NCBI RefSeq assembly: GCF_039529835.1
Contig: NZ_CP154262.1
Span: forward strand, 2,542,001-2,606,000
DNA from: Arthrobacter sp. TMP15
Lineage (GTDB): Bacteria > Actinomycetota > Actinomycetes > Actinomycetales > Micrococcaceae
Direction: 5' to 3'
DNA: 64,000 bases
Shown: positions 10,321-43,697 of the stretch, one piece after another
Numbering within the stretch: the stretch's first letter is position 1
Layout: each line of letters starts with the position of its first letter
Program-made: the position numbers and the translations under genes
The notes under the pieces: model-generated
The model's database searches: none
The model's input: only the letters and a program-made list of their open reading frames with translations
What the model was told of the DNA's origin: nothing

Positions 10321-10329
10321 TTCCCCAAG

Positions 10330-10497
10330 TTCTCCCAAACCTCGCAAGCTCAGCCCGGGACCCTCGAACCCGTGGGCCCACCCGGGTTCTCCCAAACCTC
10401 GCAAGCTCAGCCCTGGACCCTCGAACCCGTGGGCCCACCCAAGTTCTCCCAAACCTCGCAAGCTCAGCCCGGGACCCTCGAACCCGTGGGCCTAGAC
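10330..10497. repeat. Three-copy 57-bp tandem repeat array
   Basis: Units begin at 10330, 10387 and 10444, each with TTCTCCCAAACCTCGCAAGC and the palindrome GTGGGCCCAC. The last unit ends at the nagB stop codon (10492-10494). Differences between copies are few (for example CCCGGG against CCCTGG). The minus-strand reading contains GGTTTGGGAGAA followed by TGGGTGGGCCCACG, nearly the same as the repeats inside prmC at 42.45-42.59 kb. Together with the hairpin and the DUF3039 promoter, this fills the gene-free stretch 10167-10491. Confidence 0.93.
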
Positions 10498-11274
10498 GCT
10501 CTGCCAGTCTGGCTTATTTTCGTAGGCGTTGCGGTAGCTGGGGGCATCTGCCAACTTAGATGCGGCGGCCTCATCAATAATGACTGTCGCGCGCGGGTGA
10601 AACTGCAAAATCGAGGCCGGGCAGGAAGCGGATACGGGGCCCTCAACGAAGTTCCTTACAGCGTCGGCCTTGCCTTCCCCAAAAGCAACAAGAACCAGGT
10701 GCCGGGCATCCATAATGGTGCCTAGACCTTGGGTCACCACGTGATGCGGGACTTGGTCGATGTTCTCAAAAAACCGTGCATTGTCCTGGCGAGTCTGTTC
10801 TGCCAAGGTTTTGATGCGGGTGCGCGAAGCCAGCGAAGACCCAGGCTCGTTAAAACCGATGTGACCGTTGGTGCCAACGCCCAGAATCTGCAGGTCAATC
10901 CCGCCAGCCGCAGCAATGGCATCTTCGTATTGCTTACACGCACTATCAATATCTGCCCCAGCACCATCAGGGCCATGGACGTTAATCGCCGCAACGTCCA
11001 CACGGTTGGTGAACTCACGCCTGATCACCTCTCGGTAAGACTCAAAGTGTCCCACGGGCAGGCCCACATACTCATCTAGGGCAAAGCCCCGCGTTTGAGT
11101 GAAGTTTAGACCCTCTTCATCGTGACGTCGGGCCAGCTCGTCGTAGATCGGCAGCGGAGAGGAACCGGTGGCCAGGCCAATGACGGCATTGGGCTTAGTG
11201 CGCACCAGTGACTCGATGGCGTCAGCCGCCAAGGCCCCAATTTCTTTCCTGCTTGGGAGGATAATGACCTCCAT
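10492..11274 (-). CDS. nagB: Glucosamine-6-phosphate deaminase
   Basis: NagB deaminates and isomerises glucosamine-6-phosphate to fructose-6-phosphate, following NagA in amino-sugar catabolism. The 260-residue protein shows GLATGSSPLPIYDEL (phosphate loop), FALDEYVGL (catalytic Asp region) and GVGTNGHIGFNEPGSSL. The ATG at 11274 (MEVIILPS) is chosen because GGAAG stands 8 nt upstream; an in-frame GTG at 11298 has no such site. nagA lies 9.5 kb away on the other strand, so the two are not an operon. Confidence 0.95.
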   Translation of the reverse strand: MEVIILPSRKEIGALAADAIESLVRTKPNAVIGLATGSSPLPIYDELARRHDEEGLNFTQTRGFALDEYVGLPVGHFESYREVIRREFTNRVDVAAINVHGPDGAGADIDSACKQYEDAIAAAGGIDLQILGVGTNGHIGFNEPGSSLASRTRIKTLAEQTRQDNARFFENIDQVPHHVVTQGLGTIMDARHLVLVAFGEGKADAVRNFVEGPVSASCPASILQFHPRATVIIDEAAASKLADAPSYRNAYENKPDWQSV

Positions 11275-11370
11275 GAAACACGCTTCCCTTCGCGGCACAC
11301 CTGTGCCTGTGCAGTTCTCAAGTATCGCTCATTAATTGCTTCAATCTTAGCTTTTACCCAGCGTCTTCCA

Positions 11371-41587: not shown

Positions 41588-42658
41588 CTAACAGCGGTAT
41601 CCGCTGGTTGCTCTGTCCCGCCCGGTCAGATCTTGGTGGGAACGAACATTCTCCCAGTGTCCGCTTTGCTTTAGCAGCTGGGAGATTTGTTCGCCCTGCA
41701 CTTCAGCGTGCTCCATAACAAAGTATCCTCCCGGACGTAAAAGACGTGCTGCCGTTTCGGCGGCTGCCGCGGGAATTTCCATACCGTCTTCTCCGCCACC
41801 ATAAAGTGCCATATGGGGATCGTGTAAGCGCACTTCAATATCCCGCGGGATCGCATCAGCAGGGATGTAGGGCGGGTTTGAAACAACCACGTCCACTAAG
41901 GCGTTCAGCTCTACAAAAGCGTCGCGCATATCCCCGCGAATCAGGACTGCTCCGGTGCCAGCAAGATTTCGCTGCGCCCATGGATAAGCCTCATCGCTGA
42001 GCTCTACAGCATAGACCCGGGTACCGGCTACCTCAGTGGCCATAGCAGCGGCGATTGCCCCCGAACCTGTGCCGAGGTCGACGGCGAGCAGTTCAGACTT
42101 GTACGTACTTTCCTGAGACATGTGTGTTAAAACGTCGATGGCCAGCTGAACCACTGACTCGGTTTCAGGCCTGGGCACAAAAACACCCTTCCCCACCGCC
42201 AACTCCAGGTGCCTAAAATAGGCAACTCCCGTGATGTGCTGCAACGGTTCCCGCGCTTCACGGCGAGCAATGAGAGCGTCGTAACCAGCAGGTACTACAG
42301 CTGTACCAAATAACATTGCAGCTACTTCACCAGGGCTTACCCCCAGCAAGTGAGCGGCCAGAAGTTGCGCGTCCACGGCTGGAGAAGGGACGCCCGCAGC
42401 ACCGAGAATCTGCGTTGCCGCGTTCACGGCATCTGCCAGCCGAGTTTCAGGGAGGGCGTGAGTGGGCCCACGTTCGCCCGGTACCGAAGACCCTAGGCCC
42501 CCGCGCCCGAGGGCCCCGGGCACTGACGCGCCAGCGTCAGGGTTTGGGAGAGCGTGGGTGGGCCCACGTTCGCCCGGTTCCGAAGAAATCGCGCCAGCGG
42601 TTTCTTCGGCCGGCGAATGGGGACTAGTCGCCAAGGGCGTCCAATCGGGACTGCTCAT
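41588..42658 (-). CDS. prmC: Release-factor glutamine methyltransferase with repeat-derived N-terminus
   Basis: PrmC methylates the glutamine of the GGQ motif in release factors, here the PrfA encoded just upstream. The core is standard: [36 protein letters not shown] and the catalytic [10 protein letters not shown]. Residues about 24-70 are extra: they contain two copies of [12 protein letters not shown] or the near-identical [12 protein letters not shown], encoded by two 41-bp repeats. A usual PrmC begins close to residue 71. The start ATG at 42658 overlaps prfA by 35 nt, and no acceptable start codon lies between the repeats and the core, so the extra part is probably translated. Confidence 0.92.
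42450..42586. repeat. Palindromic repeats inside prmC
   Basis: Two 41-bp copies (42450-42490 and 42546-42586) share GTGGGCCCACGTTCGCCCGG with three differences in all. Between them lie GC-rich palindromes, among them CTGACGC-GCCA-GCGTCAG. The second copy is preceded by GGTTTGGGAGA, which links it to the 57-bp array at 10.33-10.50 kb. The length keeps the prmC frame open. Confidence 0.9.
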
Positions 42659-43697
42659 CCATGGAGATGGCTGACTGCACCACTGGCTCCAAATCGCCGT
42701 TCATGACGGCATCAAGATTGTACGCTTTGTAGCCAGTACGGTGGTCAGCGATCCTATTTTCCGGGTAGTTATAGGTACGGATACGCTCCGAGCGGTCCAT
42801 GGTCCGAATCTGTGACTTACGGGTAGCCGAATTCTCCGCATCAATGATGGCCTGCTGGTGGGCCAGGATACGTGCCCGAAGCACGCGCATACCTGCCTCA
42901 CGGTTTTGCAGCTGCGACTTCTCATTCTGCATGGCAACAACAATGCCTGTTGGAAGGTGGGTGATGCGAACAGCGGAGTCCGTAGTGTTCACCGACTGGC
43001 CACCAGGACCGGAAGAACGGTAAACATCAATCTTGAGATCATTCTGGCTGATATCCACTTCCTCAGGCTCATCAACTTCCGGAAGCACCAAAACCCCGGC
43101 TGCCGAAGTGTGGATACGTCCCTGAGACTCTGTTGCTGGCACACGCTGCACTCGGTGGACGCCACCTTCAAACTTCAGGCGAGCAAAAACACCCTCGGCG
43201 GGATCGTTTGAGCGGCCTTTTACGGCGATGGAAATATCCTTGTACCCGCCAAGATCCGACTCTGTGGCTGAGATAACTTCAGTCTTCCAGCCGCGGGAAT
43301 CTGCATACCGCGTGTACATGCGCACCAAGTCTGCGGCAAACAGCGCAGCCTCGTCGCCACCTTCACCGGCCTTGACTTCAAGAATCACATCCCGGGCGTC
43401 GTCAGGATCACGAGGAATCAGCAGGCGGCGTAGCTTCTCCTGCGCGGCTGCCAGCTGTTCTGCCAAGATGGGAACCTCGGCAGCAAAATCTGCATCCTCA
43501 GCAGCCATCTCCTTGGCGGCACCTAGGTCATCTCCCAGTGATTCAACTTGATGGTATCCCTGAACCACATTGCTCAACTCCGCGTAACGGCGGCCTAGTT
43601 TGCGCGCCAACGACTGATCGGCATGCACTTCAGGCTCGCTGAGGCGCATCTGAAGCTCGGCATGCTCATCAAGGAGCCCGTGGATGGATTCAAACAT
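42624..43697 (-). CDS. prfA: Peptide chain release factor 1
   Basis: RF1 reads UAA and UAG. The 357-residue protein has the tripeptide PAT in [14 protein letters not shown] (RF1 type) and the catalytic [20 protein letters not shown] with GGQ. The N-terminal helical domain starts [21 protein letters not shown] lies before the ATG. Its last 35 nt overlap prmC, its modifying enzyme. In related genomes rpmE often stands between rho and prfA; here the 163-bp gap is too short for it. Confidence 0.97.

Follow-up and report, generated by a model that had tools for sequence, protein, structure and literature searches.

The N-terminal extension of PrmC in Arthrobacter sp. TMP15 is probably made of copies of a dispersed hairpin element of conserved structure, whose usual place is directly behind stop codons and which becomes coding sequence at this site through the overlap of prfA and prmC. 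An earlier note on this DNA had proposed a palindromic repeat lying in the prmC frame upstream of the conserved core; this is supported. The repeat has relatives elsewhere, and its presence among related genomes is patchy.

The prmC gene and the repeat array ahead of its core

In the window (the whole stretch of 64,000 nucleotides that was analysed) prmC lies on the minus strand, follows prfA and overlaps it. The identity of PrmC was established by the TIGR03534 equivalog model (219.1 bits against a cut-off of 199.1, E 6.6e-65). The match to the PrmC_N domain starts at residue 76, numbering from the furthest upstream ATG. The features of the junction are the following:

42624..43697, minus strand: prfA, by open reading frame and sequence
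42624-42626, minus strand: TAG stop of prfA, which doubles as the 5' end (TAG) of the first hairpin element
42632..42634, minus strand: TTG, the likely start of prmC by our choice, with the prfA stop ending 11 nt further on
41588..42658, minus strand: prmC open frame from the furthest upstream ATG, 356 aa, by open reading frame and TIGR03534 above cut-off
42227..42433, minus strand: PrmC_N domain, residues 76-144, where the conserved core begins (PF17827, E 2.4e-14)

The position of the TTG is occupied by GTG or TTG in most relatives, and in this genome GTGs at codons 46 and 78 are possible later starts. The closest named prmC locus among those returned was that of Arthrobacter sp. H35-MC1, with a core 98% identical.

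The two 41-nt copies reported in the earlier note were confirmed at 42450-42490 and 42546-42586, 93% identical and 96 nt apart; both share the frame of prmC, precede its core and encode twice the protein motif led by E or V. As single-stranded DNA the repeat region folds better than shuffled sequence (z -3.93), which equalled it in 0 of 200 cases. The 20-mer GTGGGCCCACGTTCGCCCGG, with up to 3 mismatches allowed, occurs twice in the window against 0.03 expected; the whole genome holds two occurrences, both in prmC, and the wider pattern with at most 3 mismatches leads to the same two places. The 41-bp unit is not the element itself, since it spans a junction between the right half of one subtype, type A, and the left end of another, type I (minus strand), nor is it dispersed in this genome, as the whole-genome search returned the two prmC copies only. 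The array was instead read as follows, together with a second array found in the window:

42559..42626, minus strand: complete type A hairpin element, TAGTCCCC ... GTGGGCCCA, 68 nt (97.4 bits with model R1, which includes this copy)
42463..42558, minus strand: mosaic of 96 nt or 32 codons, in which the left and middle of type I continue into the right half of type A, read from the sequence
42450..42462, minus strand: fragment from the left end of one more type I unit (CTCACGCCCTCCC), read from the sequence
10322..10493, plus strand: second array, with three copies of type I spaced about 66 nt, from model matches and sequence

The mosaic unit gave a weak R1 match at 42459-42546 (E 0.16). Regarding the second array, its right end meets the stop of a minus-strand gene at 10492-11298, which from its sequence we take to be nagB, so that a stop can also adjoin the other side of the element.

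The extension is longer than the 45 or so added residues that had been estimated. From the prfA stop to the core motif there are 250 nt in the genome of the window against 67 nt in G013, the shortest element-free relative, and the extra sequence is thus 183 nt, or 61 codons. It had also been stated that no good start codon separates the repeats from the core; in-frame ATG and TTG are indeed absent from this interval, but codon 78, two residues into the PrmC_N match, is a GTG, and another in-frame GTG lies between the two 41-nt copies.

The hairpin element family

The element measures 61-73 nt and has the ends TAGTCCCC and GTGGGCCCA, with an interior that is variable but base-paired. With the exact-end pattern TAGTCCCC-N32-62-GTGGGCCCA we obtained 263 matches (one G010 site being counted twice), distributed over 23/23 genomes of the genus, while the reversed control gave 1; ten of the 263 are in the genome of the window. 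A covariance model of ten copies, the prmC ones included, detected 1 to 37 matches per genome at E <= 0.01 in 23/23 genomes, the best 150 candidates per genome being scored with rough E-values. The weaker of these matches in the genome of the window form the second subtype, type I, which shares both ends, TAGTCCCC and GTGGGCCCA. The repeat core with at most 1 mismatch was found in 7/23 genomes of the genus, in prmC in G000, G019, G006 and G008; in G003, G012 and G015 it stands next to other genes. In the rest of the Micrococcaceae 25/272 genomes have a match (39 matches, at least 3 of which do not resemble the element by eye); as the reversed pattern itself matches in 14/272, the count outside the genus is by itself weak evidence.

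The pairing of the element is conserved. In an alignment of 43 elements 84.1% of the cells were paired, against 61.6% when shuffled and at most 47.6% when slid, and the covariation score was 0.524 against 0.133 in the control. In alignment A2 type A is out of register in the inner stem, so the inner-stem counts are lower bounds. The outer stem, located at a fixed distance from both ends, behaves as an inverted repeat: of 133 distinct elements, carrying 38 different left-arm words, 115 have it perfectly Watson-Crick. Among its 665 pairs there were 640 Watson-Crick, 4 G-U, 10 A-C and 11 other. Considering that G-U is not favoured over A-C, these figures suggest that pairing is kept in the DNA, or through a copying process in which the arms are matched anew, instead of through selection acting on this RNA strand.

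No Rfam 15 family scored above its gathering score at the element in the window or at the elements of 15 loci. The region scanned for intrinsic terminators, 42300-42800, had 0 terminator-like sites, and the element has no U-tract. As for carriers, no phage record matched, the plasmid records gave one match, on a 754,192-bp Arthrobacter replicon, and five viral contigs contain the loose element pattern.

Position of the elements relative to stop codons

Most of the elements stand at the ends of genes. In a set of 82 elements with a stop in front, a set for which the search pattern itself required the stop trinucleotide, the frame of the stop was the longest upstream in 79/82 and reached at least 80 codons in 78/82. 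Among the model matches a stop was present at the expected spacing in 80/89 and missing in 9/89, the model itself containing the TAG. A stop-free pattern gave 138 matches, with 0 in its control; 30 of these loci were fetched, and 23/30 had a stop at the exact spacing, whose frame was the longest in 17/23 and had 60 codons or more in 15. Among the 7/30 loci with no stop at that spacing, three follow a preceding copy. TAA or TGA is also found in front of the element, and the base preceding TAG varies.

A simple gene call by codon usage placed the end of a same-strand gene within 12 nt of the element in 82/96 sites, and at the exact distance in 76/96. The gene after the element is co-directional in 52 of the 96 sites and convergent in 38; in 6 it was not found. 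In the genome of the window the genes upstream of elements include those which, from their sequences, we take to be grpE, groEL, acnA, map, aroE and purU.

We searched 117 element sites for genes that read through the element, and prmC was the sole clear case. Seven open frames cross elements: two are prmC, and of the other five, at L193, L199, L250, L195 and L264, the first three were read and judged by eye to be due to chance. Upstream genes reading into the element were found at 0/117 sites, three model matches in G004, described below, being possible exceptions. The earlier note had seen a mobile or self-copying palindrome inside an essential gene. Mobility is indicated by patchy presence only, and the usual place of the family is behind stops and not within genes.

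Two groups of sites differ from the rest. Type A elements at L211, L214 and L218 (G004) have a sense codon where a stop is usual, which may correspond to lost stops and C-terminal tails. At L247 (G006), L264 (G022) and L269 (G006) there is a common upstream flank, CGAGATAATC, and the frame of the stop has no long open frame; these are perhaps a different kind of host site.

The prfA/prmC junction across the genus

In 22/23 genomes of the genus, all but G007, prmC has an in-frame GTG or TTG no more than 12 nt away from where the prfA stop ends. In other genera ATG, GTG or TTG was present there in 0/63 readable loci (67 tried), and the 12 of these that were looked at in detail have a start further downstream. 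The element is present at prmC in 9/23 genomes (G000, G019, G011, G017, G008, G006, G003, G018 and G004), as remnants in 2/23 (G015 and G007) and absent from 12/23. Comparison of the homologues at the DNA level indicated that those with the extension share its DNA, rather than an equivalent protein stretch encoded by unrelated sequence, the latter being an outcome that the earlier note had named as overturning its reading.

Between the prfA stop and the core the spacing is 1 mod 3 in 9/9 element-bearing genomes, in the remnant G015 and in 11/12 element-free genomes; it is 0 mod 3 in the remnant G007 and 2 mod 3 in the element-free G010. Tandem type A copies say little on the frame, because their 63-nt period is already a multiple of three. 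It is noted that in the G007 junction (L027) one base is missing after the TAG, leaving prmC out of frame with the usual start, and that an N is nearby; a sequencing error is possible. The in-frame TAA that is frequent in type A is missing in prmC, with 8/8 species open against 33/59 other sites (one-sided p 0.015), a comparison in which the script counted 5/5 against 33/59 (p 0.066), the other three species were entered manually, and related species do not count as independent.

By these data it seems unlikely that translation of PrmC begins downstream of the repeats, which would leave the element as an untranslated prfA-prmC hairpin tuning the expression of prmC. Such a start could be provided by the GTG at codon 78 in the genome of the window, which would bypass the tail and counts against the explanation we prefer, and by the ATG just before the core in G006; moreover, many REPs at the N-termini of ORFs may be extragenic according to the available portion of PMC3733652. 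In G017, however, which carries a single element and whose site is 66 nt longer than the empty site of G013, no ATG, GTG or TTG occurs from the element to the core. Added to this, 9/9 inserts keep the frame, and the GTG or TTG at the prfA stop, kept in 22/23 genomes, is absent in 63/63 other loci. A downstream start, which the earlier note had named as what would overturn its reading, is excluded by the start codons in G017 only, since the genome of the window keeps its GTG at codon 78. Taking together the start codons, the frame and G017, translation of the tail appears well supported.

The tail could also be a functional domain that selection maintains in the PrmC of these species, and the fact that it is kept open and in frame would agree with this, but we regard it as very improbable. 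It is absent in 12/23 genomes and reduced to remnants in 2, and on the tree of prfA and prmC its presence shows no fewer than 5 changes on branches with good support, and 7 by parsimony. Besides, the order of its modules varies inside one species: G000 and G019, with cores 98% identical, differ by 111 nt (37 codons), the number and order of the modules being rearranged.

The grpE-dnaJ spacer as a comparison site

Directly behind the grpE stop the element is present in 8/23 genomes (G000, G019, G002, G003, G005, G006, G007 and G008), in some of them with ends that are changed or shorter; it is also found at an additional, partial grpE locus of G020. In G022 the grpE-dnaJ element is nested in another hairpin. 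Eleven spacers carry other hairpins, unlike the element in sequence; this sorting of spacers was done by eye. All 21 main spacers that extend to the ribosome-binding motif of dnaJ, among them the garbled spacer of G017, fold with a paired run of at least 11 bases.

The nested copy of G022 (L292) is not at a stop, and its ends TCCCCA ... TGGGGA may show the longer inverted ends of the full element. The spacers L276 (G017), L281 (G020) and L286 (G016) are garbled, with long stretches of G and C in place of the hairpins of relatives, probably by sequencing or assembly damage at strong hairpins.

It is quite possible, even if on balance not probable, that the element is a transposed or copied palindrome of no benefit to gene ends, found behind stops as the place where insertion is harmless. 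This would account for the patchy presence at prmC and grpE, the tandem expansion and module shuffling within a species, and the copy nested in another hairpin in G022. Against it, the distance to the stop is exact in 76/96 sites, instead of scattered through intergenic DNA, and at grpE other hairpins occupy the same place. A RAYT-type transposase is absent from 21/23 genomes.

Proposed origin of the PrmC tail

We return to the hairpin at the gene end as the preferred reading. An element behind a stop would likely work as a hairpin that ends or protects the 3' end of the mRNA. This normal role is favoured by the orientation of the next gene, convergent in 38/96 and co-directional in 52/96 sites, and by the unlike hairpins at grpE, a gene end which exchanges hairpins of different origin. 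As prmC would start on a GTG or TTG overlapping or adjoining the prfA stop, an element placed behind that stop falls between the prmC start and the core. Ribosomes would then read it as a tail of PrmC rich in Pro, Gly, Glu and Ala, presumably disordered. Copies of frame-breaking length, like those having the common TAA in frame, would cut PrmC short and disappear, and the remaining ones would drift, duplicate and swap modules. Mobility of the element is something we infer from its patchy presence.

More doubtful, in our estimation, is that the element is a stop-homing, mobile or copied DNA palindrome that brings its own TAG, whose arms evolve in concert and which swaps with other hairpins of gene ends, prmC thereby gaining a new, variable N-terminus.

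The case of prmC offers a concrete route from non-coding hairpin DNA to protein sequence by way of a gene overlap. A dispersed family of hairpins at stop codons in Arthrobacter-type bacteria could give a handle on why hairpins sit exactly at stops, and could help to study how palindromes keep their arms matched. In addition, automatic annotation may place prmC starts wrongly in these genomes.

Comparison with known systems

The MIRUs of Mycobacterium are tandem units, in one orientation, at overlapping stop and start sites of operon genes. The site at prfA/prmC resembles them in this, unlike most other element sites, which are not gene overlaps; MIRUs are set apart here by description and not by sequence, and to our knowledge they are not known as covarying palindromes. 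A MITE would have terminal inverted repeats and a target-site duplication matching a transposase; the outer stem of the element would provide such an inverted repeat.

The REPs tagged with GTAG or CGTC, as far as PMC3733652 is available, are likewise short dispersed hairpins near gene ends. The element differs in its size of 61-73 nt, its nested stems and the GTGGGCCCA at its far end. A RAYT-driven REP was considered and rejected, the Y1 tyrosine transposase (PF01797) occurring in 2/23 genomes, with that of the window not among them; no GTAG or CGTC tag is found as such, the conserved end being TAGTCCCC. In the available portion of that source, the TAG stop of a flanking ORF is often part of a GTAG REP, and other REPs are located inside ORFs, where many are close to the N-terminus and may not be translated. 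Its main text has neither the word Arthrobacter nor the word Actinobacteria. A count of computed REPs includes Arthrobacter livingstonensis, with this hairpin family not described in the accessible part of PMC12306157. Our search of the open-licence literature found no description of the element family or of the PrmC tail.

The RPEs of Rickettsia (PMC3767692, in the part accessible) are palindromes in frame inside protein genes, as the element at prmC appears to be, judging by frame and start codons; the two were compared by description. They measure 100-150 bp and belong to unrelated bacteria, while the element is usually behind stops and its coding use was clear at the prfA/prmC overlap only. 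Precedents for stop-supplying and for coding palindromes exist, in the REPs giving TAG stops and in the RPEs. The word rare, applied earlier to a palindrome within a gene, needs this caveat, given the published REPs inside ORFs (PMC3733652) and RPEs (PMC3767692).

Single or clustered hairpins close behind stops act as terminators, according to the portion of PMC8355165 at hand. These transcript-ending hairpins are a functional class found by folding, whereas the element is one family with conserved ends and tandem copies. Finally, in the mitochondria of Nematomorpha inverted repeats are kept in coding sequence, as at prmC, and template switching is discussed as keeping their arms matched (PMC6649704, in the sections available). 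Those palindromes are mitochondrial, long and perfect, while the element described here is dispersed and has fixed ends.
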